59,736 nucleotides of DNA, taken from NCBI GenBank assembly GCA_009778325.1, contig WRJZ01000041.1:1-59736 (forward strand), given 5' to 3'. The first letter of the stretch is position 1, and every line of letters begins with the position of its first letter. This DNA comes from Candidatus Endomicrobium neocapritermitis (GTDB lineage: Bacteria > Elusimicrobiota > Endomicrobiia > Endomicrobiales > Endomicrobiaceae). A program made the translations under genes and the position numbers. The notes beneath the pieces are model-generated. The model worked only from the letters and a program-made list of their open reading frames with translations. It made no database searches and was not told the DNA's origin. Positions 29,028 through 59,736 of the stretch are shown here, one piece after another.

Positions 29028-29036
29028 TTGTCTATC

Positions 29037-30839: not shown

Positions 30840-30868
30840 TTGATTTTCATACTACTTTAAGTTACAAT
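30840..30868 (+). promoter_or_regulatory. Promoter of AbiE locus 2
   Basis: TTGATT (30840-30845), 17 bases, TACAAT (30863-30868). The ATG of the downstream gene is 26 bases later, with a short AAGGG ribosome site. Confidence 0.75.
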
Positions 30869-30894
30869 AGTCGTATCAAAATCAAGGGTTGCTT

Positions 30895-31479
30895 ATGGAC
30901 AAACTTAAATCTTTACTTAAAAAAAATGACGGCATTCTAACCGCATCAGAGGCAAATGCCGTCGGTATATCCAACGAACGTTTGCGACTGCTTGTTAAGG
31001 ACGGCTCGCTTGAACGCGTTGCTCATGGCGTTTACGCTTCGCGCGATGTTTTGCTCGACAAGATGTACATTTTTCAAAAACGAAGACCTAAGTTAATCTA
31101 CTCCCACGAAACAGCATTATTCCTTCATAACCTTACCGACAGAGATCCAATAAATTACAGCGTTACGGTTCCAAGAGGCTATAACAATAAAAGCCTTATA
31201 AAAGACGGGTTAACTGTTTTTTCCTTGAAATCGGATTTGTATAAAAAGAATATCGTAACAATGGAAACAGTCTTCGGGCATAAGGTGTACGTCTATGGGC
31301 TTGAAAGGACGATTTGCGACTGTATAAGAAGCCGCAATCAAATGGACATAGCCGTTGTTACACAGGCGCTTAAACAGTATTCAAAACGCAAGGATAAGAA
31401 TATTAGCCTGCTTATGAGGATAGCCGGAGAGTTTGAGATAACGAAGATTTTGCGAGGGTACATGGAGGTCTTGTTGTGA
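30895..31479 (+). CDS. AbiEi-like antitoxin (locus 2)
   Basis: Starting at MDKLKSLLKK the protein is 194 aa. Its N-terminal winged helix (LKKNDGILTASEANAVGISNERLRLLVKDGSLERVAHGVYASRD) is the AbiEi_4-type domain, followed by the C-terminal block TVPRGYNNKSL ... LERTICDCIRSRNQMD. It overlaps the toxin by four bases. It belongs to a different subfamily from locus 1, so two separate AbiE systems lie side by side. Confidence 0.9.
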   Translation: MDKLKSLLKKNDGILTASEANAVGISNERLRLLVKDGSLERVAHGVYASRDVLLDKMYIFQKRRPKLIYSHETALFLHNLTDRDPINYSVTVPRGYNNKSLIKDGLTVFSLKSDLYKKNIVTMETVFGHKVYVYGLERTICDCIRSRNQMDIAVVTQALKQYSKRKDKNISLLMRIAGEFEITKILRGYMEVLL

Positions 31480-40442: not shown

Positions 40443-40450
40443 GAAGTTAT

Positions 40451-40490
40451 TTTATATTATTGTCAATGTTATTGTCAATATTATTGTCAA
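40451..40490 (-). promoter_or_regulatory. fic promoter with three 12-bp direct repeats
   Basis: On the minus strand TTGACA occurs three times at 12-base spacing (40485-40490, 40473-40478, 40461-40466), each in TTGACAATAAYA. The middle one is 16 bases from TATAAA (40451-40456), which ends 8 bases before the ATG. The array may be an operator. Confidence 0.65.
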
Positions 40491-40536
40491 GTATTTATGA
40501 TGTAAATTAGGCAGTACTGAGAAACAAAAAATTAAA

Positions 40537-40559
40537 GGCATGATGTACGCCTTTAGGCG
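40537..40559. repeat. Solo copy of the TACATCAT element
   Basis: GGCATGATGTACGCCTTTAG followed by GCG is the inverse of the last unit of the element at 11-122. It lies between the antitoxin and fic promoter regions. Confidence 0.65.
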
Positions 40560-40613
40560 TCTGATAGCAGTAAAATAAAATTAGACTTAAACTTACTTGA
40601 ATTAATTAGTATA

Positions 40614-40949
40614 TCAAGCAGCAAATCTTAAATGAATGCCTAAATCAGAAACAAAAGAAAGAATTGCCTTGAACGATGGATTTGCTCCGTCGGATAACAT
40701 CTTGTAAACGGTTGTCCTGCTTATTTTTGCATGTTTAGCAAGTTTTGCGGCTTTACCTTCTGCCATTACAAGCGTTTTTAAATTACGTAAAAGAATTGCG
40801 GTATCTTTTGTTTTGTTAAATTCTTTTGCGATATGTTTTTTAAACAATTTAAGTTTTTTTGGGTTTTCACTTAACATTTTAGCAAAAGATTCACTAAATG
40901 TTTCTTTCTCGATTAAATAATCTTCATTGATATTTTTTTTGTTTTTCAT
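40614..40949 (-). CDS. HTH antitoxin, HigA-like
   Basis: The 111-aa protein has a helix-turn-helix (AAKLAKHAKISRTTVYKMLSDGANPSFKAILSFVSDLG, about residues 72-105) typical of the addiction module antidote family. The helical N-terminus likely contacts the toxin. It overlaps the toxin gene by four bases and follows it, the HigB-HigA order. Confidence 0.87.
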   Translation of the reverse strand: MKNKKNINEDYLIEKETFSESFAKMLSENPKKLKLFKKHIAKEFNKTKDTAILLRNLKTLVMAEGKAAKLAKHAKISRTTVYKMLSDGANPSFKAILSFVSDLGIHLRFAA

Positions 40950-41263
40950 ATTACGCCTCCTGATTTTAAAGTATCTCTAATTTCTATTGCCTTTGCAATA
41001 TCTTGTTGTTGCTGTTTTTGATTTCCGCCTTTTGTTCCGCCGACAAGCAAAAGTAAAATCTCGTTATTCCTCAAAACAGTATAATATACTCTATAGCCCT
41101 TTTGATAATCAATTCTTAATTCGCTTATGCCTTGTCTTAGATTCCTGCAATTTGAAGTATTTCCCTCTAAAACCCTGTTGATATAATCATTTACGATTAA
41201 CTGCACATTAAAAGGCAACCTCTCAAACCACTTCATGAAAGTTTTAGTTTTCTTATCTATCAT
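40946..41263 (-). CDS. HigB/RelE-like toxin
   Basis: Starting at MIDKKTKTFMKWFERL, with GGAGAT ahead, it is 105 aa. It belongs to the phage-derived Gp49/HigB-like (PF05973) family with GISELRIDYQKGYRVYYTVLRNNEILLLLVGGTKGGNQKQQQQDIAKAIE. Such toxins cut mRNA on the ribosome. The antitoxin gene follows with overlap. The upstream 14 codons of the longest frame are not needed. Confidence 0.87.
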   Translation of the reverse strand: MIDKKTKTFMKWFERLPFNVQLIVNDYINRVLEGNTSNCRNLRQGISELRIDYQKGYRVYYTVLRNNEILLLLVGGTKGGNQKQQQQDIAKAIEIRDTLKSGGVI

Positions 41264-41321
41264 TAACTTATCTCCAATTATATTGTCGCATATAGGGAAC
41301 AACATGTCAAGCCTTTTATAA

Positions 41322-42624: not shown

Positions 42625-45600
42625 TTATTCCACAAATATTTCTACTCTTCTGTTGTTTGCTCTTCCTGCCGGCGTTTTGTTTGTGTCTATCGGCATTGTG
42701 TGCCCAAATCCTACGTATTGCATCTTCTCCGGATTTATTCCGTGTTTTGCAAGCTCGTCAAACACCACCCTGGCTCTTTCTTTTGACAGCCTTTTATTCA
42801 ACTGCGCGCTGCCGGTTGAATCCGTATGGCCCTCTATCGTTATTTTTGTGAACGTATATCCGCTTATCTTTTCCGCAAGCTGTCTTATATTCGCTTTTGA
42901 CTCGTCGGTCAGTTCGGACGAACCAAGTTTAAAAGTCGCCGCGTTTAAGCTGAACGACTGAACCGCAGGCTGTTTTCTTCTTGCTTCGGCTTCCTCAAGC
43001 TCTTTTTGAAGTTCCTCTTTTTCCCGCTCAAGCCTTGCTATCTCGGCTTTTTCTTTTTCCAGCTTATGTTTCATCTCTAAACTTCTTTTCTCCGCTTCAA
43101 GCCTTTCTTTTTCCTCTTGTTCGGCAGCTCTCTTTTTTTCCATCTCAATCATTTCGGCTTGAAGTTTTCTTTCCATTTCCATTTTCTCTTGCAATGCTTG
43201 AGCGTTTCTTTCTTTTTCAAGTCTTTCGCTGTCTTCCACCTTTATCTCGGCTATCGGGGATTTCGTCGGCACGGCTACAAAGCTTTCTTTTTGCGCCGCT
43301 TTACCGGATTTACCGAAACTGTAATTTAACCCTAAACCGACAAAGTATCCGGTGTTATTAAAATTCGTATTAAGCGAAGTTGAGAATTGTTCGGTTATAG
43401 CGTACTCGGCACCCGCGCTTATTCCCGCTATGAACGCAGGCATTTCAGCGCTCCAGATCTCCATTGTTACTTCATCCAATGAATTTACGAACGAGGCTTC
43501 AAGCGTGTTTTTATTGCCTATAATATTGTATCCGAAATTCGCTTTGGCATACCAGTTTAGTCTGCTTACTTCATCCGCTACGCCTGCTCCGAACAGCCAT
43601 GCAGCCTTCATATAAGAAGCGGCTTTTATTTTAAGATCTGCCGCTCCTCCGCCGGTTTCTTCAATCTCGCCGCTGTTTACCATGCCCATCTGCAAGCCCG
43701 TAAAAGGTTTCAAATTAATTTTATCGGTCAGCGTAATCGCGTATTCGCCCTGAACGTCCGCTTTAAAGCTCATTGAATTAAAATTCGACTGCGTTTTCGT
43801 TCCGTAAAATTTAATGTCCCTTTCAGCGTCGTAACTCTGTATGCCGCCGCTTAAATCCGCCTGAACGCTTATATTGTTATCAAACCACTTTCCGCCGTAA
43901 ACGCCGAAGCTTATGTCGGACATGCTTCCCGAATCATAACGCTGTTCAAGAGAGTTTGAAGCGTATCCGAAATACGCGCCGGCAACAAGATTTTCTTTCG
44001 TATACAAGTCCGCGCCTAACTGCATTCCGAAACCGCTCGAAATAAATTCCCCGACTGAATTTTCGTCACCTGGAAAACTATAATTATTCACATACACCTG
44101 GGTCCAGATAGATTTGCCTATTTTGCCGTCGTCGTCAAAACCGCGTTTTTTAATTCTGGCGAAAAGTTTGTCGGCCGCATTATACGACAAAGGCACGGTA
44201 ACGGCATTGGCGTAGAAAGAACCGTGAAGCTGGTTAAACGCTTCTCTGACTTGCGGCGGAGTTGAAATATCGAGCATATCTATCATATCCCACATATCGT
44301 TTATAAAAATCGCTTCGTACGCTATGGCGTCCAAAGCTTTTGCGACTTCGCTCTGATTATGCGATAATCCGCTTATACGGCTAAAATGAGTGTCTCTGGT
44401 AACCATCAAATACAAATCTTTCCAGAAACCGCTTTCATAGCCCGTATAATTTAATCCCCACTGATAACCTACCGGCAAATATTCCGAAGGAGGCTCTATA
44501 GGCTGATTGGCAAATATACCCGTGCTTCCGCCGTCACTTTCTATAAGAAGTATGCTTGTCTCGGTGCTTGCTACTATTCTGCTGTAAATATTTAAAATAA
44601 GTTCGCTTGTATCGTTTATTACGACTTTTCCGTTAAAACCGGTTGCCGAGCTTACGCGAATAAGGTCTGCTATTCCTATAAGCCGATTATCCGGATCGCT
44701 CAGATCCCTGTATTCCAAATTCACGTCGAGCGCGAGTTTTCCGTCTATGGTTAAGCTTCCGAAATTGCTTACCTGCGCCGCGGTTCCGCTTTGAACGGAG
44801 TAAATTCCGTTTGCGCCTATATGCATATTGCCTATGGTAACGTTGACATTGTCTATAACATTGACTGCTCCGTTGAGAATATTAAGCGTCCCGGCATAAT
44901 TATATACCCCGCTGCTTTCAAAATTCAAAGCGCCGGTTCCGGTTTTATCTATAACGCTGCGATAGTCATCGCCGGATATTCCGCCGTTAAGCGTTATATT
45001 TGATGCCGCGTTCAATTCAAGCCTGCTGTTATAGCCGGTCAAATAAACGTCGTTGTTGCCGGAAGAATCCGTATTGCCGGCAAAAACCATATCGTTATAT
45101 AATGCGTTAATTCCTACATAAGCGTTTGCGCCTACAGCTATAGCTCCGCCGTTTGATGCCGTATTGCTTGTGAAAATAACATCTGTAAATGTCACTGAAC
45201 TTCTTCCGGAAACGTACGCCGCTCCTCCCAGACCTGTCGCCGAGTTATTTGCGAAAGTTGAGTTTGAAACAGCGCCGACAGCAGGGCTGCCGAAATTACC
45301 CGATACCGACAATGCGCCGCCGTTGGCTGTATTATTAAATAAGAACTCGGCATTGCTGATTGTCAGCAATGAACTGTTGGCGTAAATCGCGCCGCCGTTC
45401 ATGCTTGCGGTATTAGATGAAAATACGGCATTGGTTATGTTTATGGTTGAATCGCTTGCAGCATATATCGCGCCGCCCGACGTTGAACTGTTGCCGGAGA
45501 TACTTGCGCCGTCTATTAACAGCTGCGAACCGGACATATACACAAATCCGCCTGAACTTGCAGCAATATTATTGTCTGCGACTAAATAAGTTCCGCTGAA

Positions 45601-48600
45601 ATCCGCAGCCGAATTATTTGTCAAATATATTGCCCCACCCGCTACAGTTGCGCTGCTGTTTGTTATCGTTGTGGTTGACGCGGTAAATACGAAATCGGTT
45701 TTATTGCCGTAAAGTATCCCGCCGTAATTTGCCGTGTTGCTTGTGAAAACCACATTGTTAAACGTTATAATGCCCGCGTTATCCGCGTACATAAATCCGC
45801 CCGCATTTGCCGTATTTCCTACAGCTTCTATATACGTATTGCTGAAATCCGCTTTTTGAACATTGGCAATGTAAATCGCTCCGCCGGAACTTACTGCAGT
45901 ATTTCCGTCAAACGTCAGCGTGCTGCCGGCAACATTTAACAATGAATTGTCAATATAAAGAGCGCCGCCGTAATCCGCGGTATTAGTTGAAAATACAACA
46001 TTTCCGCTGATTGTCAGCGTTGAACCGCTTACCGCGTATATTGCTCCGCCTGCCGTCGGGTCATTATTGCTTATAAAAGCATCGCCTATTATTATTTCCG
46101 AATTTGACGAATATATTACTCCGCCGTATTGCGAATCATTGCCTGTGGCAGTCAAATATGTCTGGCTGAAATCCGCTACCGAGTTATTTGTTAAATATAT
46201 CGCTCCGCCAGCTACAGCCGCGCTGCTGTTTGTTATTGTTGTGGTTGCCGCGGTAAATACGAAATCGGTTTTATTGCCGTAAAGTATCCCGCCGTAATTT
46301 GCCGTATTGCTTGTGAAAACCACATTATTAAACGTTACAATGCCCGCGTTATCTGCATACATAAATCCGCCCGCATTCGCTTTATTTACGACAGCTTCTA
46401 TATACGTATTTCTGAAATCCGCTTTTTGAACATTGGCAATGTAAACCGCTCCGCCCGAACTTGTTGCCGTATTTCCGTTAAACGTCAGTGTGCTGCCGGC
46501 AACATTTAACAATGAACCGTCAACATAAAGCGCTCCGCCGGAAGCTAAACTTCCTGTCGCAGTATTAGTTGAAAATACCGCGTTTCCGCTGATTGTCAGC
46601 GTTGAACCGCTTACCGCGTATATTGCTCCGCCTTTTGCAGACCTTCCATTGCTTATGCTTGCGTTATCAATTAACAGCTGCGAACCGGACATATATACAA
46701 ATCCTCCGGAACTTGCCGCTATATTATTGTTTGCAGCTAAATAAGTTCCGCTAAAATCCGCTGCCGAGTTATTTGTCAAATATATTGCTCCGCCGGCTAC
46801 AGCCGCGCTGCTGTTTGTTATCGTTGTGGTTGCCGCAGTAAATACGAAATCGGTTTTATTGCCGTAAAGTATCGCGCCGTAATTTGCCGTGTTGCTTGTG
46901 AAAACTGCATTGTTAAACGTTACAATGCCCGCGTTATCCGCGTACATAAATCCGCCCGCATTCGCTTTATTTCCTACAGCTTCTATATACGTATTTCTGA
47001 AATCCGCGTTTTGAACATTTGCAATGTAAATCGCTCCGCCGGAACTTGTTGCAGTATTCCCGTTAAATGTCAGCGTGCTGCCGGCAACATTTAACAATGA
47101 ACCGTCAATATAAAGCGCGCCGCCGGAAGCTAAGCTTCCAGCCGCAGTATTAGTTGAAAATACCGCTTTTCCGCTGATTGTCAGCGTTGAACCGCTTACC
47201 GCGTATATTGCTCCGCCGGACGTCGGGTCATTATTGCTTATAAAAGCGTTGCCTATTATTATTTCCGAATTTGACGAATAGATTACTCCGCCGTATTGCG
47301 CATTATTGCCTGTGGCAGTCAAGTATGTCCGGCTGAAATCCGCCTTTGCTCCGTTTGTCAACGCTATGGCTCCGCCATTTGAAGCCGCGCTGTTGGAATT
47401 GAACGATGTTGTTGCCGCAGTAAACTCAAACGCTGTTCCAGCGCCGTATAATACGCCTCCGTTACCCGCAGCGTTATTCGTAAAATTCACTTCGCCGAAT
47501 ATCACTTTGGACGTATCCGTATATAAGAAACCGCCTGCCCCGCCCGCGTTATTTCCTACCGCGCTTATAAAAGCGTTGCTGAAATCTACTTCTCCGCTGT
47601 TCGTTATATACATCGCTCCGCCGGAACTTCTCGCGATGTTAGCGTTAAACGTCAACGTGCTGCCGTTTACAAAATTCATATACGAATTGTTCAAATATAT
47701 TGCGCCGCCGGAAGCTAAGCTTCCTGTTGCCGTATTTAATGAAAATACCGCATTATCAGTGAATGTCAAAGTCGAATTGTTGCCGGCATATATTGCTCCG
47801 CCATACGTGGAACTGCCGGCGGATATTGTCGCGCTGCCTAATATAATTTCCGAATTATTTAAATAAGCAAAACCTCCGCTTGTTCCTGCAGTATTTCCGG
47901 TTGCCGTAACATTCGCGGTTGTAAAATCTGCTATGGAGCCGCTTGTCAATGCTATTGCTCCGCCGGAAACCGACGCGCTGCTGCGGACAAAATTCGTATT
48001 GTCGGTAAACACATATTCCACAGACTGTCCGTACAATGTTCCGCCGGACTGCGCCGTATTGCTTGTAAAATTCACGCTGCCGAACGTCACTATTCCGCTG
48101 TCGGCAAACATAAATCCGCCGGCATAAGCAGAATTGTTATAAGCGTTAATATACGCGCCTGACAAATCTACGCCTGCATTGTTGTTTGTTATATACATAG
48201 CTCCGCCGGAGCTTCTCGCTACGTTAGCATTAAAAGTCAAAGCGCTGCCGGTTGCAAAATTCAGATACGAATTGTCAGAATATATTGCTCCGCCGGAAGC
48301 ATTTGCAGTATTTAATGAGAACGCCGTATCATTTACAGTGAACGTCACTGTTGAATTGTTGCCCGCATATATTGCTCCGCCATATGCGGAACTGCTCCCG
48401 GATATTGTCGCGCTGCCTAGTATAATTTCCGAATTATCCAAATAAACAAATCCTCCGCTTGTTCCAGCCGTATTTCCGGCGGCGTCAAGAATTGTATTTG
48501 TAAAGTCGATAACTGCATTGTTTGTCAATGCTATGGCTCCGCCGGAGGTGTCGGCTTTGTTTGAAATAAATGTCGCGCTGCCGAAACTTATTGACGAGGC

Positions 48601-51600
48601 CGCGCCGCTGCTAAATATTGCGCCGCCGTAAGAATTCCCGGTTCCAGATGCTTTGTTGCCGCTGAAAATTGCCGTTGATATTTGTATTTGTCCCAAATTA
48701 AATATCGCTCCGCCGGAAGCATTGCTTCCTTCAGCCGTATTAGAAATAAACGACAGCAAATCTCCGTTTGCGATTATCGAAGAGTTTGCCGCGTTAAATA
48801 TTGCGGCTCCGCTTGATGATGCTTTATTATATTCGAATACCGCGGAACTGCCGTTAAAATTTATTTCCGCATTTTGGTTAAATACCGCTCCGCCGGAAAC
48901 TGCAGAGTTGCTTGTGAAATTAATAGGTCTGGTTCCATTATTAAAACCGGCAAACGCAGAATTTTCATTATACAAAGCGCCGCCGAACATAACTGCGCTG
49001 TTGCTTGTGAAATTTACGCCGCTGCCGTTAGTAAAGTTAACGCTCGAACCGGATGTATTATACATAGCTCCGCCGTTATAAGATTCGTTCAGCGTAAACG
49101 AAACGCTGTTGAAATTCACGGATGCAAGCGTTCCCGAACTGAACACCGCGCCGCCGTTTCCTGCCGCGTTATTTTGTATAAACGAGCCTGAATCAATTGA
49201 AATTTGACTCAAATTATACACTGCTCCGCCGGAACCTTCCGATATATTGTTATTAAACGACGCGAAGCCTGTTAACGTTACGCTTGAAGCCGAATTGACA
49301 AACATCGCGCCGCCGTCGGACAAAGCCTCATTTCCCGTAAACAATATTGAACTTCCGAAAAGCGAACTAAACGCTGCGCCGTCAATATACAAAGCTCCGC
49401 CCGAGCTTACGGCATTGTTATATTCAAACGAATTTAAGCCGGCAAGGAATGACACGGTCGAACCTGCGCCTGCATAAAAAGCGCCGCCAACCGACATAGT
49501 AGAACTGTTATTATTAAATACCGCGTTGTCAAAAATCGCAACTCCTCCGCTTATATTTACCGCGCCGCCGGAACTTCCCGCAACGTTATTTAAAAACATC
49601 GCGCTGCTTACGGAAAGCTCTCCCGCGCCCTGATATATAGCACCGCCGGAACCGAATGCTTCGTTATCGTTGAATATAACGTTTTGAATTTGCACGGTCG
49701 CGCTGCCGCTTACCATCCTTAACACCGAACCGTCCGTGTCGGTTCTTGTGAAATTCGGCGGCAGAAACGGCGCGGGCGTATAATTCCCGTGAGCCTGCGC
49801 GCTTGACACCGTTAAATCCTTGAGTGTAAACGCAACTGCCGTTCCCTCTTCTATATTGAAAAACGTTCCTCTCTCCGTAGGAATAAAAGTATTCGTATCG
49901 GCTAAAACTCCAAGCAGCACGCTTTCGCTTGCGTCAGAGCTGTAACCTTCGACCAGAAAAGTGCCGCTGCTCATATTATGCAGGCTGTCGCCTATGGCGT
50001 AAACGACGGTATCGGATGATAATTTAGAGAATAAAAATGCCCTTGAGTCCGTTTTCATATTCATTCTGTCAAGCGAATACATATCCGACGCTGCCGAAGC
50101 GACTAAAACTATCCACTGCCATTTATCTCCGGTTGACGTATCGGTGGCAACCCAAATAACATACTCGTAAGCGGTAGTGGCTATAGATTGTTCCTGATCC
50201 GGGTTAAACTCTATTCCGTATAACACCTGGGTTTTTCTTTCCTGATTAAGCCCTACGTCAAAGTCGTCTCTTATTCTTACCCATCCCAAATCAAAAACTC
50301 CGGATGACGATGTGTTGACTACCAGCGAATCGCTTATCATGTCCGCGGTATCCGTAAAAGTTACGCCAAACCCGAGAGAAGTGCCGGACACATGCAAATT
50401 GCTGAATTCCACGGTTCTTGTAGACATTAACGCTTCCGTAGCCGGAGTTACCAAATCTATTGACGAATTATTAAAACCGTAAATCGTATTTCCGATATAA
50501 TCCGTTGACATAAGCACAACGTAAGAATCGTTAAACGTTACGGCATTGTTTTTGCCGTTTTCTAATTTATTGTTCAGATAATAGTTTGCAAGACTGCCGC
50601 CCAGCGCGCTATCTGCGCCGAACACCGCTTTGGCATTTTCGCCTGTAAAACGGATATCCGCGCTGTCAACATCAGCCCAGGCAGTATCCATAGCGTAATG
50701 GTTTAGAATGCCGCCGGTGCTTAAATTTACAGTATAATACACTCCCAAATCGCTGTAGATTTCAAGCAGACTGTTAATTACGGTATTGGTCCCGCCGAAC
50801 ATTATCCCTGAAGACAGCACGGTGGTAGTTCCCGCGTACTGCGTAAACCGCCCCGTAAAGCCGCCGTTATCTCCCGACAAAACCAAAGAACCCGTACTTG
50901 AAAGATTTTTATTTATCGCGCCGTTTCCGGTAAAGATGCCTGAATAATAAAGATCTCCACCGGTATTAATATCCGCGATGCCGCCTGTATACACGCCTAT
51001 TTCCGCGGTAGCTGTCGTTGAACTCAACCGCGCGCCGGAATTAAATTCCAGCCTGCTTGCGCTTATGCTGCTTATTCCCGTAAAATAGTCGCTTGTAACT
51101 ATAGTCGTGCCGCTGCTTTGCTCAAATACTCCGGCAAATTCCGAACTGTCGCCGTTAATGTAAAGTTTTCCGTTGGTTTTCAATATTGTTCCGTCGCCGC
51201 CGATGCCGCCGTTAAATACAATGTCGCCTGCGCCGTTTATGTTTATGAGCGCTCCTGCTTCATTATATATGTCGTTTCCGAAACTTGAAGCCGTATTGCT
51301 CGTAAATGTTATGCTGCTGCCAAGAGCGGCGGTAAGGTTTAAAACTCCGGCATTATAAATCGCGCCGCCGGCGCCGGCTGTGTTTCCTGAAAACTCGGTG
51401 TTGCCTGCTATATTTATAACGCTTGCGTCATTGTATATGGCGCCGCCGTTTAACGCATTGTTGAACGCAAACGTTGTTTGACTTGCGTTTATGGTTATTG
51501 TAGAACCGTCAGCCGCGTATATCGCGCCGCCGGCGGCATTGCCTCCCGCCGCAGTATTGCTGCTTATGGACGCGCTTGATATTATTACCTGAGAATTATA

Positions 51601-54600
51601 CGCGTATATAAATCCGCCGTCCTGCGATTCGTTTCCGGCCGCGGTTAAATATGTCGCGCTGAAATCAGCGGTTGATTTATTTAAATATATTGCCCCGCCG
51701 GCTATGTTTGCAGCGCTGTTATTAAACGCCGTGGTTGCGGAGGCAAACTCAAACTTGCTTGACTGTCCGTATAGTACGCCGCCGTAATCCGCCGTATTGC
51801 TTGAGAAATTTACTTTGCCGAATTTAATTGTTCCGTTCTGCGCGAACATAAATCCGCCCGCATAAGCGTCATTTCCGTAAGCGTTAATTGTCGCGCTTGA
51901 AAAATCCGCGCTGTTTGTTATATATACAGCTCCGCCGGAACTTACCGCCGTATTTTCATTAAACGTCAGCGTGCTTCCGGCGACAAAACTTAACGTGGAG
52001 TTATTAACGTAAAGAGCTCCGCCCGAACCGCTGCTTCCTACGGCGCTGTTGGAAGTAAAATTGACGCCGCTTACAAATTGTATATTGCCGCTGTTCGAAT
52101 ATATCGCGCCGCCCGCAGAATTTGCCGTGTTAAGATTTATGGTCGCGCTGTCTATTATCAGCAAACTGCCGGACTCCACGCTTGCGAAACCGCCGTTTGC
52201 CGCCTCATTTTCCGTTGCCGTAAGCGCGCTGCCTCTGAAATCCGCCGTAGAATTATTTACAAGCGCGATTCCTCCGCCGGAGGCATTCGCCTCATTGTTA
52301 ATAAATGACGCGCTGCTGATATTTCTGAAATTATTATAAGACGCGCTTGAGAAAACAGCGCCGCCCGAACCGTTTTGCGAAACGTTATTTGCAAAAACAG
52401 CGCTGCGGCTAAACGATATTGTCGAGTTGGAAATATACGCTGCGCCGCCGTTATAAGACGCCGAATTATCGCTAAATGTTGCGCTGCCTATATTTATAAC
52501 GCTGTTGTTTGCCGCGTATATCGCTCCGCCCGAGCTTGTCGCTATATTGTTGTTTATATACGCGGTGGATATTATTACCTGCGAGTTATCCGCGTATAGA
52601 AATCCGCCGGATTGCGATTCGTTTCCGCCGGCAGTTAAATTTGTCGCGCTAAAATCAGCGGTCGATCTGTTTAAATATATAGCTCCGCCCGCTATGCTTG
52701 AAGTACTGTTATTAAATGCCGTGGCCGCCGCTGCAAAATCAAACCTGCTTGCCTGTCCGTATAATATGCCGCCGTAGTGCGCCGTATTGCTTGCGAAATT
52801 TACCGCGCCGAATCTAATAGTTCCGTTTTGCGCGAACATAAATCCACCGGCAAACGCCGAATTGTCGGCAGCGTTAATTGCCGCGCTTGAAAAATCCGCG
52901 CTGTTTGTTATGTATATTGCTCCGCCCGAGCTTATTGCCGTGTTTGCGTTAAATGTCAGCGCGCTTGCGGGAGCAAAACTTAATTGCGAATTATTAATAT
53001 AAAGAGCTCCGCCCGCATTCGCTTTGTTAGCCGCGAATTTCGTATTTACGCCGGCAAATGTTAAAGTCGAACCATTGCCAACGTATATCGCTCCGCCGGA
53101 ACTTACCGCAGTATTTGCGTTAAATGTCACGGAGCTTGCGGCAGTAAAAGTTATTGAAGATCTGTCGGTATAAATTGCTCCGCCGGCATTCGCATTATTG
53201 TTTGCAAGTTCCGCGGTTCCGGTAAACGTCAGAGTCGACCTGCCGGTCAAATATATCGCGCCGCCTTCATCCGGATCATTATTGCTTATAAACGCGTCTC
53301 CTATTATTGTCTGCGAATTCGAAGAATATATTACTCCGCCGTATTGCGCGGTATTGTTTTGCGCACTCAGATAAGCGCCGCTAAAATCAGCTTTCGCTCC
53401 GTTTACCAAGGCTATGGCTCCGCCGTTTATTGTAGCGCTGCTGTAATTAAATGTCGCCGTGCCAGAGGCAAATGTAAATTCCGTTCCGCTGCCGTACAAT
53501 ACGCCGCCGTTTCTTGCGGTATTGCTTATAAAATTCACTCCGCCGAATATAACCTGCCTTGAGTCGGTATATAAGAAACCGCCTGACTGTCCGGAGATAT
53601 TTTTAGATCCGTTTACAAACGAGCCGCTGAAATTCGTGATTTGGCTGTTTGTTATGTACACTGCTCCGCCCGAACTTGTCGCGGTATTACCCGTAAATGT
53701 CAGCGTGCCGCCGGAAATATTAAACTGCGCGCCGGTCGCATAAATCGCACCGCCGACAGTTGCTGAACTTGACGTAAACCATGCAGCGCTGTTATTAAAC
53801 GTCAAAGTTGAACCTGTTCCGGAATATATCGCGCCGCCCTGAGAAGCTGTATTAGAAGTAAACGTAACCGAAGAATTCGCAAAATTTATTCCCGCGTTTT
53901 GGTTAAATATCGCGCCGCCCGAAGCCAAGTTCCCGGTTCCGTTTGCTCCGTTATTATTAAATGTCACGGTTGAATTTACAAAACTTAACGCAGCGCTTCC
54001 CGCGTTGACATTATACACCGCTCCGCCGGACGTATTATTCGCGGCTTTATTGTTTCCAAAATATACATAACTGTTGGCAAATGCCGCGGTTGAAGCGGAA
54101 TTTACAAATGCTCCGCCGGAACTTGTCGCTATATTTCCCGTAAATGTCATTGTTCCGCCGCTAACGCTAAATAAAGAACTGCCGGCATTATATACCGCTC
54201 CCGCGATTGTGCCTTCATTATTTAAAAACAGAGTTTGGGCATTAACAAACATTGCAGTAGAAGCTGAGTTTACAAACGCTCCGCCCGAACTTGAGGCTAT
54301 GTTGCCGGTAAACGTCATGCTTCCGCCGTTAACGCTAAACATCGAACCGGAATTATATACCGCGGCGCCGGTGACGCCTCTGTTATTTGTAAAAAGAGTT
54401 TGGGCATTAACAAAACTTGCAGTGGAAGCGGAATTTACAAACGCTCCGCCCGAACTTGTCGCTATATTTCCGTTAAACGTCATGCTGCCGCCGTTAACGC
54501 TAAACATTGAACTGCCGGCATTATATACCGCCGCTCCGTTTACGCCTCTGTTATTTGCAAACAGTATATTACTGTTTGCAAAACCGACAACAGAATCTGC

Positions 54601-57600
54601 CGCATATATCGCGCCGCCGTTTGATGTTGCTTGGTTACTTGAAAAATTTACCGTTGAACCGTTGTTAAACTGTGCATGAGAATTATTGCCGGCATATATC
54701 GCTCCGCCGGATACCGCTGAGTTTGTCGTAAAATTTACCGCAGCGCCGTCAAATGTTACATCGGAAGAATCGGCATAAACCGCTCCGCCGAAACTTGACG
54801 CCGTATTGCTTGTAAATTTTATTGAACCGCCGGTAAAATTAAAGTTTGAATTGCCGGAGGCATATATCGCGCCGCCGAGTATTGCGGAATTTGTCGTAAA
54901 ATTTACAACAGCGCCGTCAAATGTTATATCGGAAGAATCGGCATAAACCGCTCCGCCGGAATTTGCCGCGGTATTGCTTGCAAAACTTACGGAACCGCCG
55001 GTAAACTCTGCGCTTGAACTATTTGCATATATCGCGCCTCCGCTGCCTGATGCTGCGGTTGACGCGTTGTTTGTAAATTTTGTAACGCTGTCAATAAAAC
55101 TCAAAACCGCAGAGCTGTCTAAATATACGGCCCCGCCGTTTTGGGCTCTGTTTCCGGTAAATGACGAACTGCTTGAATTAAAGCTTGTCATTGCGCAGGA
55201 ATTATAAATTGAGCCGCCCGACGCAGCCGTATTGCTTGTAAAGTTCACTATGGAATTTGTAAAAGCAGCCGCAGCCGAACCGTCAACATATATCGCCCCG
55301 CCATGATTTGCGGCATTGTTGTTGATAAAGTTTATAACGGAATTTCCGGAATTTACCAAAGCAAAACTGCCGGCATATACTGCCGCGCCGGATGCTGCTG
55401 TATTTCCGTTAAAGGTTACGGTAGAAGCCGCGAATTCCGCGGTTGAAGAATTTACGGCGTAAATTGATCCGCCTAAAGACGCGCTGTTGCCCGTAAAGTT
55501 AACCGAGCTGGACGCAAAATCAAATTCCGACGAATCGCTATATATCGCGCCGCCGTTATTGTTGAGGGCGCTGTTGTTTGTAAAGATTGCCGATGAATTT
55601 AAGAAATTTATCAAGGCGCTGTTCCCGCCGTAAATCGCTCCGCCGCCGGAAGCCAAGCTTCCCGTAGATTTGTTATTGTCAAACAAAATATTATCCGTAA
55701 ACGACGCGCCGCTTGCCGTCACATATACGGCTCCGCCGAAACCGCCGGCGGTATTATTTCTGAATACCGCATTGTCTATGTTAAGTATTCCGGCTTCTTT
55801 ATATATTACTCCGCCGTTTCCGAACGATTCGTTATCGTTAAATATTACGTTGGTAACCGTCGTTGTTGACAGTGAGCTCAGCATTCTTAATACCGAGCCG
55901 TTGGTATCAACTCTGCCGCTCTGTCCGTTGCCGTTAGCCTGCGCGCTTGAAACTGTTAAGTTCGACAGAGTAAAATCTACCGCAGCCGTAGTAATATTAA
56001 AGAACGTTCCTCTGTCTGTGCTGTTGTACAAAACGCCCGACAAAATGCTGCTGCTGGCGATTGTATTATAACCGTCTACGGTAAAAGTTCCGTGCGCCAT
56101 TTCGTGAAGATTGTTGCCTTCGGCGTAACGCGAAATTCCGTCGGCGTCAAGCGATGAAAAATAGAAAGCTCTGTCGCCTGTAAGCATATTCATTCTGTCA
56201 AGAGAATATTCGTCCGCCGCGCCGGTAGCCGTTAAAACCACATAATAATAGCTGCCTGTGGTCCACGAAGAAACGGCTGCCGTATATTCGTAAGCGTTAG
56301 TAGCTATATTTTTGGCTGTACCGCCCGGTACAAATTCTATTCCGTCAAGAACAGTCAGCACATACTCTCTGTTAAGCCCCGCATCTTGGTCGTCCCTTAT
56401 TTTTACAAGGCCCAAAGACAGATCGCCGGAAGAATATTGCGTTGTGAGCATATCGTTATACACATTGCCGCCGTCAAACACGACTCCGAAATTTAAGGAT
56501 GTATTGGAAGACGAAAGGTTTGAAAACGCCACAGTTCTCACGCTTGTCGGAACAAGCGTTGAAACGCCTACCGCCAAATCAATAATGGAATCATTGAACT
56601 TATAAAGCGTTGCGCCCGTAAAATTGTCGGCGGCAATGTCCACATAAGAATTATTAAACGTCACGGTATTGCTTTGCCCGTTATCTATGGCGTTTGCCAA
56701 AACGTAATTTGCGTAAGTTGACGTTGACGTAAATGCCGGGTCTTTGCCGAACACCGCTTGCGCTCCGTATGCGGTAAACGTTATATTGGCGCTGCTGACT
56801 GTCAGCCAGGTTGTTGAAGACGTTGCAAAATGATTAAGCACTCCGTTTGTGCTTAAATTCACCGTATAATAAATGCTGTCATCGTAAACTTCAAGCAGAG
56901 AGTTTGAAACGGTGTTTGTCCCGTTAAACATTTTTCCGCCGGCTCTGCCGTCCACTATAACGGTTCCGTCGTATTGGTTATATTCTCCGGTGAAACCCAT
57001 ATTATTGCCCGTCAATGTCAATGTTCCCGTGCTGCCGATATTTTTATTGATTTCGCCGTTGCCCGTAAAAATACCCGCATAAGAAAGCGTTCCGTTGCTG
57101 TTAATATCTGCAATAGCGCTGCCGTACACTCCTATTGTTCCCGTGCTTAACTGCGCTCCGTTATTAAATTCAAGCACGCCGGCGCTTATGCTGCTTATTC
57201 CCGTAAAATAATTGCTTGTAACTATAGTCGTGCCACCGCTTTGTTCAAACAGGCCTGTAAAGCCCGAACTGTTTCCGGCAATTACCAATGTGCCGTCATT
57301 CGATTTTGTAATTAAACTGCTTGACGTTCCTGCGATTCCGCCGTTTAAAATCACGCTGTTTGCGTTTCCGTCTATGTTTACCGTCGCCGTATTATAAATA
57401 TCGTTTCCGAGATTTCCCGCGGTATTTGACGCAAACAAAATATCGCCCGCGTCGGAGGTCAAATTCAAAATGCCCGCGTTGTATATCGCGCCGCCGTTAT
57501 TGCCGGATTTATTTCCTGTAAATTTGGTATTGCCGGCTACATTTATAATACTTGAATTATTGTATATTGCTCCGCCGTTTAAAGCGGTGTTGGAAGTAAA

Positions 57601-59736
57601 CGCGGTTTCAAATTCGGTTATTGTTACCGTGGAACCGCCGGTCGCATATATCGCTCCGCCGGATGCTGTCGCGCTGCTGTTGCTGACGCTCGCGCTGCTT
57701 ATTAATAACCATGAATTGTCAAGATAGGCAAACCCGCCTGAGCCTGTAGTGATATTACTGTCGGCGCTCAAATAAGTTTGTCTGAAATCCGCGGTAGAGC
57801 TATCCGTTAAATATAACGCGCCGCCGGCTGCCGTCGCGCTGCTGTTTTTAAATTCGGCTGTTGAGGCAATGAAATCGAAAACGGCAGACTGCCCGTACAA
57901 TACTCCGCCGAATTGCGCTTTGTTATTGTCAAAGCTCGCTTCTTTAAATGTCACATTAGCGCCATTGGCGCCGCCGGCTGCAAACATAAATCCGCCGGAA
58001 CCCGCCGTATTATTTACTCCGTTTACGGACGCGCTGCTGAAATCCAGCGTTTCAATGCCCGTTATATATATGGCTCCGCCGGAACTTTCCGCTATATTTC
58101 CTGTAAATGTCAATGCGCTTGCAGGCGCAAAATTAAGATATGAACTGTCCAAATACAAAGCTCCGCCTACATTCGCGCTGTTTGTTGAAAATTGAATGTT
58201 ATTCGAAGTAAATGTCAGCGTTGAACCTGCGCCTGCGTATATTGCTCCACCCGCAGCAGACGCGCTGCTGCGTACAAAATTTGTATTTTCAGTGAACACG
58301 TATTCCATGGTCTGTCCGTACAGTGTTCCGCCGTACTGTGCCGTATTGCTCGTAAAATTCACGCTCCCGAATGTCACTGTTCCGCTGTCGGCATACATAA
58401 ATCCGCCCGAACTTGACGCTATGTTTCCTGTACCTATTATATACATATTGCTGAAATCAGCTGTCCCGTTATTTGTCAGATATATTGCTCCGCCGGATCC
58501 CGACGCGTCGTTTGTCGCTTTGTTTGCCGTAAACGTCAATGTGCTGTATGCCGTCGCGTACATCGTTGAACTATCTATATATATTGCTCCGCCGTATGTC
58601 GCCGTGTTTGTCGTAAATGTTACCGCTCCTCCGTTAAATATCAACTGCGAATCGTATCCCGCGTATATTGCTCCTCCGTCCTGCGGGTCATTATTGCTTA
58701 TTAACGCGTCCTTTATTGTTACCATTGAATTTGACGAATATATAAATCCGCCGGATTCTCCGGCTTTATTTCCTATTGCTTTCAAATAATTTCCGCTGAA
58801 ATCCACGCTTGAACCGTCTGTCAAATACATTGCTCCGCCGGATTTTGTCGCGCTGCTGTAATAGAATGACGCTGTCGCGGCATTAAACTCAAATTCCGTT
58901 CCGTCACCGTATAATACTCCTCCGTATTTTGCCGTGTTGCTTTCAAAATTTACTTCCCCGAACACTACTTTCTTCGCGTCCGTAAATAAAAATCCGCCCG
59001 CTTCTCCCGCTTTGTTGCCTGTTGCGTTTACTATCACGCTGCTGAAATCCGCTGCGTCATTTGCTCCCGTTATATACACCGCTCCGCCCGAACTTATCGC
59101 CGTGTTCGAACTAAATGCCAGCGTTTTGCCTGCCGTAAAATAATATTCGCTATTGCTTATGTATAAGCCTCCGCCTGTATTCGCCGTATTGCTCGTAAAC
59201 GTTACATCCGCGAATGTTATGCTGCTGTTTTCTACATACAGCCCGCCTCCGCTTATGCTTGATATGTTATTCTCAAACAGCGCGTTCGCTATTGTCACGC
59301 TGCTGTTTGTTATGTACCCCGCTCCGCCCGAATTTGCCGCCGTATTCGAACTAAACGTCATGCTTCCCATTAGATTAGCCGTGCTGTACTCTATATATAA
59401 TGCTCCGCCGTTTATATTGTAATTTTCCGCAAACTCTCCGCTTACTCCCGTATTTACAGTTAGATTCGAACTGCTCACGCTCACTCCGCTGCTTGTATAC
59501 ACCTGCCATGTTCCTTGTCCATATGTAAAATCGCTTGCCCGCTCTATTCTCGTTGTTCCTGAACTCTGGCTGAATAATCCCTGTACATAATTCTCACCGC
59601 TTATGTAGAGCGTTCCCGTTCCCGTTTTATACATCTCATTGCTCATACTTCCTATATACATTCCGTCTTCTATTCTTATCTGATTATTTACCGCATTAAA
59701 GTTTATTATTGAACTGCTTGCATATATGTCGTTTCC
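42625..59736 (-). CDS. Giant Pmp-like autotransporter with C-terminal coiled coil and OmpA domain (5' end outside window)
   Basis: The frame is open to the right edge (the first in-window residues are GNDIYASSSIIN), so more than 5700 residues are present and the signal peptide lies outside. From N to C: Pmp-like repeat arrays with G-G-A-[IVL]-Y and F-x-x-N motifs, interrupted by two similar spacer modules (57430-55800 and 51290-49690); a linker; an autotransporter barrel (about 44110-43318); a long Glu/Lys coiled coil (43240-42975); and an OmpA-like domain (42960-42628) with EGHTDSTG and N-x-x-L-S-x-x-R-A, the diaminopimelate-binding residues. The passenger should be a beta-helix outside the cell, while the OmpA part anchors the barrel to peptidoglycan. 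Function is probably adhesion or surface shield; that is inference. Confidence 0.9.
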   Translation of the reverse strand, partial: GNDIYASSSIINFNAVNNQIRIEDGMYIGSMSNEMYKTGTGTLYISGENYVQGLFSQSSGTTRIERASDFTYGQGTWQVYTSSGVSVSSSNLTVNTGVSGEFAENYNINGGALYIEYSTANLMGSMTFSSNTAANSGGAGYITNSSVTIANALFENNISSISGGGLYVENSSITFADVTFTSNTANTGGGLYISNSEYYFTAGKTLAFSSNTAISSGGAVYITGANDAADFSSVIVNATGNKAGEAGGFLFTDAKKVVFGEVNFESNTAKYGGVLYGDGTEFEFNAATASFYYSSATKSGGAMYLTDGSSVDFSGNYLKAIGNKAGESGGFIYSSNSMVTIKDALISNNDPQDGGAIYAGYDSQLIFNGGAVTFTTNTATYGGAIYIDSSTMYATAYSTLTFTANKATNDASGSGGAIYLTNNGTADFSNMYIIGTGNIASSSGGFMYADSGTVTFGSVNFTSNTAQYGGTLYGQTMEYVFTENTNFVRSSASAAGGAIYAGAGSTLTFTSNNIQFSTNSANVGGALYLDSSYLNFAPASALTFTGNIAESSGGAIYITGIETLDFSSASVNGVNNTAGSGGFMFAAGGANGANVTFKEASFDNNKAQFGGVLYGQSAVFDFIASTAEFKNSSATAAGGALYLTDSSTADFRQTYLSADSNITTGSGGFAYLDNSWLLISSASVSNSSATASGGAIYATGGSTVTITEFETAFTSNTALNGGAIYNNSSIINVAGNTKFTGNKSGNNGGAIYNAGILNLTSDAGDILFASNTAGNLGNDIYNTATVNIDGNANSVILNGGIAGTSSSLITKSNDGTLVIAGNSSGFTGLFEQSGGTTIVTSNYFTGISSISAGVLEFNNGAQLSTGTIGVYGSAIADINSNGTLSYAGIFTGNGEINKNIGSTGTLTLTGNNMGFTGEYNQYDGTVIVDGRAGGKMFNGTNTVSNSLLEVYDDSIYYTVNLSTNGVLNHFATSSTTWLTVSSANITFTAYGAQAVFGKDPAFTSTSTYANYVLANAIDNGQSNTVTFNNSYVDIAADNFTGATLYKFNDSIIDLAVGVSTLVPTSVRTVAFSNLSSSNTSLNFGVVFDGGNVYNDMLTTQYSSGDLSLGLVKIRDDQDAGLNREYVLTVLDGIEFVPGGTAKNIATNAYEYTAAVSSWTTGSYYYVVLTATGAADEYSLDRMNMLTGDRAFYFSSLDADGISRYAEGNNLHEMAHGTFTVDGYNTIASSSILSGVLYNSTDRGTFFNITTAAVDFTLSNLTVSSAQANGNGQSGRVDTNGSVLRMLSSLSTTTVTNVIFNDNESFGNGGVIYKEAGILNIDNAVFRNNTAGGFGGAVYVTASGASFTDNILFDNNKSTGSLASGGGAIYGGNSALINFLNSSAIFTNNSALNNNGGAIYSDSSEFDFASSSVNFTGNSASLGGSIYAVNSSTAEFAASTVTFNGNTAASGAAVYAGSFALVNSGNSVINFINNNAANHGGAIYVDGSAAAAFTNSIVNFTSNTAASGGSIYNSCAMTSFNSSSSSFTGNRAQNGGAVYLDSSAVLSFIDSVTKFTNNASTAASGSGGAIYANSSSAEFTGGSVSFASNTAANSGGAVYADSSDITFDGAVVNFTTNSAILGGAIYASGNSNFNFTGGSIKFTSNTASSFGGAVYADSSDVTFDGAAVNFTTNSAVSGGAIYAGNNSHAQFNNGSTVNFSSNQATSNGGAIYAADSVVGFANSNILFANNRGVNGAAVYNAGSSMFSVNGGSMTFNGNIATSSGGAFVNSASTASFVNAQTLFTNNRGVTGAAVYNSGSMFSVNGGSMTFTGNIASSSGGAFVNSASTAMFVNAQTLFLNNEGTIAGAVYNAGSSLFSVSGGTMTFTGNIATSSGGAFVNSASTAAFANSYVYFGNNKAANNTSGGAVYNVNAGSAALSFVNSTVTFNNNGANGTGNLASGGAIFNQNAGINFANSSVTFTSNTASQGGAIYSGTGSTLTFNNSAAWFTSSSATVGGAIYATGAQFNISGGTLTFTGNTATSSGGAVYITNSQITNFSGSFVNGSKNISGQSGGFLYTDSRQVIFGGVNFISNTARNGGVLYGSGTEFTFASGTATFNYSSATINGGAIALVNGAKADFSGAYLSAQNNTAQYGGVIYSSNSQTIIGDAFISNNDPDEGGAIYLTGRSTLTFTGTAELANNNANAGGAIYTDRSSITFTAASSVTFNANTAVSSGGAIYVGNGSTLTFAGVNTKFAANKANAGGALYINNSQLSFAPASALTFNANTAISSGGAIYITNSADFSSAAINAADNSAFAGGFMFAQNGTIRFGAVNFASNTAHYGGILYGQASRFDFAAAATAFNNSTSSIAGGAIYLNRSTADFSATNLTAGGNESQSGGFLYADNSQVIISTAYINNNIATSSGGAIYAANNSVINIGSATFSDNSASYNGGAAYISNSTISFSRSAVFANNVSQNGSGGAVFSSASYNNFRNISSASFINNEANASGGGIALVNNSTADFRGSALTATENEAANGGFASVESGSLLIIDSATINLNTANSAGGAIYSNSGNIQFVSGVNFTSNSAVGSSGSGGALYVNNSTLSFVAGSTLTFNENTAVSSGGAVYITNSADFSSATINAYGNDAYAGGFMFAQNGTIKFGKVNFSSNTADYGGVLYGQSSKFEFASATTAFNNSAANIAGGAIYLNKSTADFSATYLTAAGNESQDGGFIYAYNSQVIISSASISSNTAAGGNAAGGAIYAADGSTITINASQTTFAFNNALNGGAIYNDASVINIAGNTEFSGNTAGAGGAIYNAGVLNLTAALGSSITFTSNTASSFGNDIYNEAGALININGAGDIVFNGGIGGDGTILKTNGKLYINGDSSEFAGVFEQSSGTTIVTSDYFTGISSISASRLEFNSGARLSSTTATAEIGVYTGGIADINTGGDLYYSGIFTGNGAINKNLSSTGSLVLSGDNGGFTGRFTQYAGTTTVLSSGIMFGGTNTVINSLLEIYSDLGVYYTVNLSTGGILNHYAMDTAWADVDSADIRFTGENAKAVFGADSALGGSLANYYLNNKLENGKNNAVTFNDSYVVLMSTDYIGNTIYGFNNSSIDLVTPATEALMSTRTVEFSNLHVSGTSLGFGVTFTDTADMISDSLVVNTSSSGVFDLGWVRIRDDFDVGLNQERKTQVLYGIEFNPDQEQSIATTAYEYVIWVATDTSTGDKWQWIVLVASAASDMYSLDRMNMKTDSRAFLFSKLSSDTVVYAIGDSLHNMSSGTFLVEGYSSDASESVLLGVLADTNTFIPTERGTFFNIEEGTAVAFTLKDLTVSSAQAHGNYTPAPFLPPNFTRTDTDGSVLRMVSGSATVQIQNVIFNDNEAFGSGGAIYQGAGELSVSSAMFLNNVAGSSGGAVNISGGVAIFDNAVFNNNSSTMSVGGAFYAGAGSTVSFLAGLNSFEYNNAVSSGGALYIDGAAFSSLFGSSILFTGNEALSDGGAMFVNSASSVTLTGFASFNNNISEGSGGAVYNLSQISIDSGSFIQNNAAGNGGAVFSSGTLASVNFNSVSFTLNESYNGGAMYNTSGSSVNFTNGSGVNFTSNSAVMFGGALYNENSAFAGFNNGTRPINFTSNSAVSGGAVFNQNAEINFNGSSAVFEYNKASSSGAAIFNAANSSIIANGDLLSFISNTAEGSNASGGAIFNLGQIQISTAIFSGNKASGTGNSYGGAIFSSGAASSISFGSATFISNKADTSGGAIALTNNAVIDFTNTILDAAGNTAGTSGGFVYLDNSEIILGSATISGSSSAYGGAIYAGNNSTVTFTVNDTAFSLNTANASGGAIYSDNSYLNFATGSALTFNANVARSSGGAMYITNNNAGVDLSGAYINAYNNSAYAGGFMFADSGIVTFGSVNFTSNTAQSGGTLYGQSVEYVFTDNTNFVRSSASVSGGAIALTSGSIADFTTANVTATGNTAGTSGGFAYLNNSEIILGSATISAGSSTYGGAIYAGNNSTLTFTDNAVFSLNTATGSLASGGAIYLNNSYMNFVNGSTLTFNANIARSSGGAMYITNSGEVDFSNAFISAVGNNAGGAGGFLYTDTSKVIFGEVNFTNNAAGNGGVLYGAGTAFEFTAATTSFNSNSAASNGGAIALTNGAKADFSRTYLTATGNNAQYGGVIYSSNSEIIIGNAFISNNDPTSGGAIYAVSGSTLTISGKAVFSTNTAAGSLASGGALYIDGSLLNVAGSTLTFNGNTATSSGGAIYIANVQNADFRNTYIEAVGNKANAGGFMYADNAGIVTFNNAVFTSNTANYGAILYGNKTDFVFTAATTTITNSSAAVAGGAIYLTNNSAADFSGTYLAANNNIAASSGGFVYMSGSQLLIDNASISNGRSAKGGAIYAVSGSTLTISGNAVFSTNTATGSLASGGALYVDGSLLNVAGSTLTFNGNTATSSGGAVYIANVQKADFRNTYIEAVVNKANAGGFMYADNAGIVTFNNVVFTSNTANYGGILYGNKTDFVFTAATTTITNSSAAVAGGAIYLTNNSVADFSQTYLTATGNDSQYGGVIYSSNSEIIIGDAFISNNDPTAGGAIYAVSGSTLTISGNVVFSTNTADYGGALYIDNSLLNVAGSTLTFDGNTAVSSGGAIYIANVQKADFSNTYIEAVGNTANAGGFMYADNAGIITFNNVVFTSNTANYGGILYGNKTDFVFTASTTTITNSSATVAGGAIYLTNNSAADFSGTYLVADNNIAASSGGFVYMSGSQLLIDGASISGNSSTSGGAIYAASDSTINITNAVFSSNTASMNGGAIYANSSLLTISNAEFLFNNTANGGALSVSGNFGSPAVGAVSNSTFANNSATGLGGAAYVSGRSSVTFTDVIFTSNTASNGGAIAVGANAYVGINALYNDMVFAGNTDSSGNNDVYLTGYNSRLELNAASNITLNGGISGDDYRSVIDKTGTGALNFESSGVYNYAGTLNILNGAVNVIDNVNVTIGNMHIGANGIYSVQSGTAAQVSNFGSLTIDGKLALDVNLEYRDLSDPDNRLIGIADLIRVSSATGFNGKVVINDTSELILNIYSRIVASTETSILLIESDGGSTGIFANQPIEPPSEYLPVGYQWGLNYTGYESGFWKDLYLMVTRDTHFSRISGLSHNQSEVAKALDAIAYEAIFINDMWDMIDMLDISTPPQVREAFNQLHGSFYANAVTVPLSYNAADKLFARIKKRGFDDDGKIGKSIWTQVYVNNYSFPGDENSVGEFISSGFGMQLGADLYTKENLVAGAYFGYASNSLEQRYDSGSMSDISFGVYGGKWFDNNISVQADLSGGIQSYDAERDIKFYGTKTQSNFNSMSFKADVQGEYAITLTDKINLKPFTGLQMGMVNSGEIEETGGGAADLKIKAASYMKAAWLFGAGVADEVSRLNWYAKANFGYNIIGNKNTLEASFVNSLDEVTMEIWSAEMPAFIAGISAGAEYAITEQFSTSLNTNFNNTGYFVGLGLNYSFGKSGKAAQKESFVAVPTKSPIAEIKVEDSERLEKERNAQALQEKMEMERKLQAEMIEMEKKRAAEQEEKERLEAEKRSLEMKHKLEKEKAEIARLEREKEELQKELEEAEARRKQPAVQSFSLNAATFKLGSSELTDESKANIRQLAEKISGYTFTKITIEGHTDSTGSAQLNKRLSKERARVVFDELAKHGINPEKMQYVGFGHTMPIDTNKTPAGRANNRRVEIFVE
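45616..47180 (-). repeat. Three near-identical segments of about 570-585 bp in the giant gene
   Basis: Blocks beginning near 45616, 46183 and 46768 share long nearly identical stretches (for example GTTATCGTTGTGGTTG, TACGAAATCGGTTTTATTGC and ACGTATT-TGAAATCCG). They encode the same repeated residues (ADNAGIVTFNN, NYGGILYGNKTDFVFTA). They are recent in-frame duplications. Confidence 0.8.
49690..51290 (-). repeat. Spacer module, copy 2, of the giant autotransporter
   Basis: About 530 residues from GNDIYNEAGALININGAG to VLRMVSGSATVQIQNVIFNDNE. It parallels copy 1 at 55800-57430: NSLLE[VI]Y, YYTVNLSTGG, AVFG, MYSLDRMNM, RGTFFNI, NLTVSSAQA. Between the two copies lies a Pmp-repeat array. Confidence 0.75.
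55800..57430 (-). repeat. Spacer module, copy 1, of the giant autotransporter
   Basis: About 540 residues from GNDIYNTATVNIDGNANS to VLRMLSSLSTTTVTNVIFNDNE. It matches copy 2 at 49690-51290 in order, with divergence in most positions but the same landmarks. The window's right edge again starts with GNDIY, so a further copy may begin there. Confidence 0.75.

Follow-up and report, generated by a model that had tools for sequence, protein, structure and literature searches.

The window analyzed here is the whole of contig C41 (59,736 bases), from a source genome of 2.38 Mb in 54 contigs. The initial annotation of this DNA had described a single frame of over 5700 codons that combined Pmp-like passenger arrays, an autotransporter barrel, a coiled coil and a peptidoglycan-binding OmpA domain. 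The frame was confirmed as having 5,703 codons and a single stop codon, the terminal one at position 42625. Pfam searches along it identified Chlam_PMP in three successive pieces, followed by Autotransporter and then OmpA, so the arrays, the barrel and the OmpA domain do lie in one chain in that order (Table 1). The ATG listed at 59661 need not be the true start, as the frame reaches the contig end. The window also contains a second autotransporter gene, two adjoining AbiEi/AbiEii (type IV toxin-antitoxin) gene pairs and, near the 3' end of the giant gene, a Fic/DOC-family gene that adjoins a Gp49-like/HI1420-like toxin-antitoxin pair.

Table 1. Coordinates of features in the window, with the evidence for their assignment.
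Feature	Coordinates	Strand	Evidence or remarks
AbiEi/AbiEii gene pairs (two)	29028-32303	+	
Second autotransporter	32752-36546	+	Barrel 34759-35499; helical, weakly TPR-like tail 35548-36543 in place of OmpA
Fic/DOC-family gene and toxin-antitoxin pair	39423-41305	-	
Giant autotransporter frame	42625-59736	-	N-terminal end beyond contig end
Pmp-type repeat array 1 (residues 1-900)	57037-59736	-	PF02415 E 1.5e-14 (piece 57001-59736); motif counts per 300 residues
Pmp-type repeat array 2 (residues 1201-3000)	50737-56136	-	PF02415 E 1.2e-54 (piece 51001-57000); motif counts
Pmp-type repeat array 3 (residues 3301-5100)	44437-49836	-	PF02415 E 1.1e-17 (piece 45001-51000); motif counts
12-strand autotransporter beta-barrel	43315-44118 (Pfam range 43366-44109)	-	PF03797; AlphaFold2 strands; EstA 3kvn Z 27.7
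87-residue charged helix, predicted periplasmic strut	42973-43233	-	AlphaFold2 model and composition
OmpA domain, predicted peptidoglycan clamp	42628-42972 (Pfam range 42649-42936)	-	PF00691; 3td5 match; conserved Asp and Arg

The passenger carries Chlam_PMP repeats, with PF02415 scores of up to 176.6 bits, and the piece searched for array 3 also matched TIGR01376 (POMP_repeat, 5.8e-32). The arrays are separated by stretches almost devoid of Pmp motifs (residues ~901-1200 and ~3001-3300), and a pattern count over the giant frame gave 76 GGA-type and 112 FxxN motifs. In a split self-comparison, residues 1-1199 were 46% identical to residues 2052-3242, which indicates tandem super-repeats of ~2,000 residues within the passenger. 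A 2024 paper described the 43 coils of a Pmp-like protein as record-breaking (PMC11166332). Based on these motif counts, the giant passenger is probably longer than that 43-coil protein. As the window frame lacks its N-terminus, secretion of the giant protein was judged from its complete paralogues, which by eye start with a hydrophobic signal-like stretch.

Both C-terminal domains are well supported members of their families. The barrel matched PF03797 with an E-value of 2.2e-31 and 110 bits (cut-off 26) and has the 12-strand fold, while the tail matched PF00691 with 2.3e-20 and 73.2 bits (cut-off 27.2) and has the expected Asp and Arg. Structure prediction of the region from the barrel to the C-terminus with AlphaFold2 (9 sequences; mean pLDDT 76.9, pTM 0.49) returned a barrel in which 12 long strands were counted from the DSSP assignment, followed by a helix (model residues 309-395) and a domain with the OmpA fold; the single domains of this model are sound but their placement relative to each other is not. 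The VIA-align comparison of the modelled barrel with EstA (3kvn) gave an rmsd of 2.0 over 272 aligned residues, and the barrel also matched NalP, AaaA, EspP and AIDA-I (Z 24.0-27.7 for EstA, NalP, EspP and AIDA-I). Both ends of such barrels face the periplasm. Since the strand number in the model is even, both barrel ends should lie on one side, and this topology fits the proposal in the initial annotation that the tail after the barrel is periplasmic.

The modelled tail aligned with 3td5, the OmpA domain of A. baumannii bound to the peptidoglycan pentapeptide L-Ala-gamma-D-Glu-m-DAP-D-Ala-D-Ala, with a Z of 18.0, an rmsd of 1.7 and 37% identity over 110 residues, a score that ties with those of other OmpA domains matched by the tail. 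The window domain keeps the Asp and Arg that align with those of A. baumannii OmpA (3td3), which we take to be the residues that bind peptidoglycan. Both were also kept in 32 of 34 fused OmpA domains among the loci fetched. We predict that the OmpA tail binds peptidoglycan, while noting that OmpA domains can serve other roles. Two fused tails of family f13 (L136 and L137, G086:C68) have Cys in place of the conserved Asp, and, judging from such substitutions, some fused tails may be unable to bind the wall.

The segment between the two domains is where the initial annotation required revision. A long helix is indeed predicted, but the label of coiled coil is doubtful, as heptads are weak, hydrophobic residues occupy at best 44% of a/d positions and the Glu/Lys/Arg-rich sequence contains 23 opposite-charge pairs at i,i+4 spacing. 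In the model, the 87 residues may instead represent a single-helix strut.

The order of barrel then OmpA recurs widely. The genome from which the window derives encodes 19 barrels, nine of which have an OmpA match downstream in the same frame (the window, C20, C51, C13 and C45, with two each on C54 and C34). In six further genomes of the family (G001, G004, G006, G009, G010 and G011, the last contributing no barrels), 40 of 82 barrels share a frame with OmpA; the OmpA match was downstream in all 40, upstream in none of the 82, and in two of the 40 pairs it was below the Pfam cut-off. The gap between the two Pfam ranges in these 40 pairs was 55-600 residues. Four more family genomes had OmpA in frame with at least 34 of 73 barrels (at least 1/8 in G032, 13/23 in G041, 16/30 in G061 and 4/12 in G073), with no upstream OmpA among the matches listed; G041, which has the same order, is a one-contig genome of 1,588,979 bases. 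Termite-gut Endomicrobia MAGs contributed 11 loci, eight with barrel then OmpA, two with a TPR-like tail and one with a tail without OmpA. These loci were found with barrel alignment A4 (six rows, two of them TPR-tailed, with the window's giant barrel left out) and are thus a biased sample of relatives of the A4 subgroup. L071 (WRNH01000013.1, ~4379) belongs to the OmpA-tailed clade and has a tail that ends before any OmpA domain, possibly through a recent loss or a frameshift.

Across the phylum, where up to 10 candidates were scored for each genome, PF03797 was identified in 137 of 247 genomes, in the window's family and f13 and, less often, in f16, f17, f21 and f22, with single weak matches in two f7 genomes of the same class as the window's. 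It was absent at E 0.001 from eight genomes of other families in the same order or class. The search for the same order in other Elusimicrobiota, suggested when the giant frame was first noted, was fruitful, with examples in f13 as well as in the window's own genome, its family and the termite MAGs.

The giant protein first noted belongs to a protein family in which several tail types occur (OmpA, TPR-like, long helix, or none). The second autotransporter in the window has a barrel that shares 69% identity with the barrel of L028, an OmpA-tailed paralogue, and its TPR-like tail also occurs in L040, L070, L077 and L110. The NCBIfam BamD model matched this tail far below its cut-off. The model of its barrel and tail was poor (mean pLDDT 38.4), and we used only the helical end of that model, beside the weak TPR matches. 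Another protein, L066 (G000:C48:60356-66559), is a 3,119-aa autotransporter with ~1,800 residues past the barrel, 73% of which are Ala, Glu, Lys, Arg or Gln and helix-like by composition; as one straight helix this tail would far exceed the width of the periplasm. By eye its end resembles a degenerate OmpA domain, with no match to the OmpA profile. Long tails were also seen in L104 and L112.

Split versions of the same arrangement were found in other families. At four f13 loci (L078, L079, L080 and L085) a small gene lies directly downstream (-11 to 19 nt) of a tail-less autotransporter gene and encodes an OmpA protein of 158-173 residues whose start appears lipobox-like by eye, and at the f16 locus L097 a similar lipoprotein-like OmpA gene follows a tail-less autotransporter at 60 nt. 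Among 28 f13 loci, 26 of them taken mostly from the stronger rows of a 54-row f13 list, four had an adjacent stand-alone OmpA gene, six a fused OmpA tail and 18 neither. L084, which has a masked run inside its tail, was left out of these counts, and no OmpA gene was seen beside L086, L093 or L094 when up to three same-strand frames were inspected by eye at each.

The two forms can be compared most closely in G055 and G041. Contig C6 of G055 carries stand-alone and fused OmpA domains within 10 kb of each other. L080 supplies the stand-alone domain; two autotransporters encoded on the opposite strand, at distances of ~4 and 8 kb, have fused OmpA tails that share 77-78% identity with it, and the likeness extends upstream to the lipoprotein Cys region. 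In G041, two near-alike barrels (tree path 0.09) differ in that L087 has a fused OmpA domain and L082 ends in a tail of 94 residues, with a separate gene for OmpA beginning 13 nt downstream. L082 and L083, also of G041, are open frames of 7,051 and 8,163 aa that have almost the same tail of 94-95 residues each and a near-identical separate 271-aa OmpA gene downstream.

Phylogenetic analyses were consistent with repeated exchange of tails. In a tree of 57 OmpA domains (105 columns; close pairs alone were used), the nearest relative of the window's domain was the stand-alone, lipoprotein-like OmpA protein L002 of its own genome (66%, support 99/85). Seven fused rows missed by the barrel profile (two own-genome, five f13) were labelled as fused by hand for this tree and for the site-residue count. 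On a tree of 58 hand-picked rather than randomly drawn barrels, the OmpA label required at least nine changes, of which supported branches force six, compared with a mean of 17.4 after shuffling, which suggests that tails follow lineages yet have been gained, lost or swapped repeatedly. One of the two partners of the window's barrel in a supported trio, L114, is tail-less. The highest barrel identity to that of the window on the tree, 41%, was to L098 (G001:C6:35433-37367), in which two tandem OmpA domains follow the barrel. Approximately half of the barrels lack an OmpA tail, from which it follows that the OmpA anchor is dispensable for autotransport.

Based on these relationships, the probable origin of the OmpA tails is a fusion of autotransporter genes with lipoprotein-like OmpA genes next to them, for which the f13 cluster in G055 provides direct sequence evidence. 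We are inclined, with modest confidence, to regard the Elusimicrobiota proteins as an undescribed type V subclass of wall-anchored autotransporters, in which a neighbouring lipoprotein-like OmpA gene would have been fused repeatedly onto the periplasmic end of the barrel. The tails in this proposed subclass would be interchangeable, comprising OmpA, tandem OmpA, TPR-like segments, and helix-rich linkers, hundreds of residues long and once ~1,700, that lead to an OmpA or OmpA-like end.

The giant protein itself, from a relative of termite-gut Endomicrobia, is in our view likely to be a type Va-like (monomeric) autotransporter that carries its wall anchor as a fused tail. By analogy with its families, Sec would carry the chain across the inner membrane, the barrel would be inserted with the help of an Omp85/BamA-type protein (an Omp85/BamA-type gene is present), and the Pmp-type passenger would exit through the barrel and fold into a long beta-helical fibre. 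The chain continues past the last strand as the charged helix, ~13 nm if straight, and then the OmpA domain. This tail would stay in the periplasm, with the helix bridging to the wall and the OmpA domain gripping the peptidoglycan peptide non-covalently. Pulling on the fibre would in that case load the wall and not the fluid membrane, with a possible further role for the tail in assembly. When two genes are neighbours in some genomes and a single fused gene in others, their products often cooperate. The split and fused pairs, the best hint of function obtained, suggest such cooperation here, which is why we favor an anchored autotransporter, and they lend indirect support to the cell wall anchoring proposed in the initial annotation.

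An alternative, which we regard as possible but rather unlikely, is that the tail serves mainly in assembly, with wall binding or periplasmic chaperoning raising the insertion or display of the giant passenger and load bearing being secondary. It would agree with reports that surface AtaA falls when TpgA is lost (PMC8151025) and that surface YeeJ falls on deletion of its LysM domain (PMC5595812); Endomicrobiaceae, moreover, are reported to lack BamBCD (PMC11257099), so that helpers could be valuable. Against this, the tail also occurs on paralogues of ~500-600 aa and is absent from one of 3,429 aa in G041, and tails thus appear to have no clear link to passenger size. Load bearing and an aid to assembly are both compatible with the present evidence.

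It is less probable still that the many autotransporter-OmpA paralogues jointly tether the outer membrane to the wall in the manner of OmpA and Pal. The number of tails (nine in the window's own genome and at least 13 in G041) and the variable spacing of the Pfam domains would suit such a function; however, nine of the 18 OmpA-family matches in the own genome lie outside autotransporter frames, so tethering need not depend on the tails. Finally, a frameshift or an assembly join of an autotransporter with a neighbouring OmpA gene, the possibility that would have undone the initial annotation, is thinkable in a draft genome because relatives do have separate neighbouring OmpA genes, but it is excluded for the family, and is negligibly probable here, because the same order repeats in dozens of frames from several genera, among them paralogues, termite Endomicrobia MAGs and the one-contig G041. 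The barrel and OmpA domain in one giant frame are thus confirmed as a real observation.

What keeps giant adhesins from being torn out of a fluid outer membrane has been described as unresolved (PMC13082670), and the question has so far been studied with AtaA-TpgA. The autotransporters described here offer fused, split and tail-less versions side by side, even on very similar barrels in one genome, which makes anchoring comparable within one family. A barrel with an OmpA tail also offers a ready-made scaffold for surface display in which the wall anchor is built in, and the finding directs attention to the little-studied surface of termite-gut Elusimicrobiota. We found no description of an autotransporter-OmpA fusion in the literature searched, which consisted mainly of titles and abstracts and had most subscription papers outside its scope, and by title and abstract the papers on autotransporters in Elusimicrobiota or Endomicrobia contained nothing on an OmpA fusion. 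The accessible main text of a fibrillar-adhesin survey (PMC8286594) does not mention OmpA, nor do the accessible parts of PMC9289746 mention Elusimicrobiota.

The window protein has features in common with several known systems. Known classical type Va autotransporters end at the last strand of the barrel. The window protein shares with EstA, NalP, AIDA-I and EspP the PF03797 12-strand barrel and a passenger before it, but adds ~230 residues of helix and OmpA past the last strand, and so departs from the rule that the barrel is the extreme C-terminus. Its OmpA domain is common, in sequence and fold, to the OmpA/OprF porins and the lipoproteins Pal, YiaD and YfiB. OmpA itself consists of a barrel in the outer membrane and, after it, a periplasmic OmpA domain. 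The proteins of this group have an 8-strand barrel or a lipid anchor and, to our knowledge, no autotransported passenger. Similarly, we know of no chlamydial Pmp protein with an OmpA tail. Both the GGA(I/L/V)-FxxN repeat passenger and the autotransporter barrel of chlamydial Pmp proteins (PMC11166332) are present in the window protein. The Pmp middle domain, ChlamPMP_M, had no match at E 0.001 in the four pieces covering the frame, whose borders could hide one, and the protein was not assigned to the chlamydial Pmp family.

Inverse autotransporters with LysM, such as intimin and YeeJ, join in one chain, as the window protein is predicted to, a wall-binding periplasmic domain, a barrel and a surface passenger, LysM being the part that binds peptidoglycan (PMC5595812). 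They differ from the window protein in the reversed order of the parts, in having LysM for OmpA and in their barrel family; the order of passenger, barrel and OmpA excludes assignment to type Ve. Another parallel is AtaA-TpgA of Acinetobacter sp. Tol 5, in which a giant autotransporter adhesin is paired with a periplasmic protein that binds peptidoglycan, as the fused tail of the window protein is predicted to do, and for which the mechanical effect of the coupling has been computed (PMC13082670). The genes of AtaA and TpgA are co-transcribed (PMC8151025). AtaA is trimeric and its anchor is a second protein, whereas the window protein has a monomeric PF03797-type barrel and a fused anchor. The TpgA model NF047726 matched the OmpA part of the window tail only (1.5e-9), and the 37.4 bits, against an equivalog cut-off of 350, amount to a domain-level match and not to TpgA membership. 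We read the fused protein, by analogy, as AtaA-TpgA condensed into one chain and as the LysM inverse autotransporters in mirror image. Its barrel is truly of the PF03797 type and its OmpA domain is equally genuine; it would work like both of these systems and is a member of neither.
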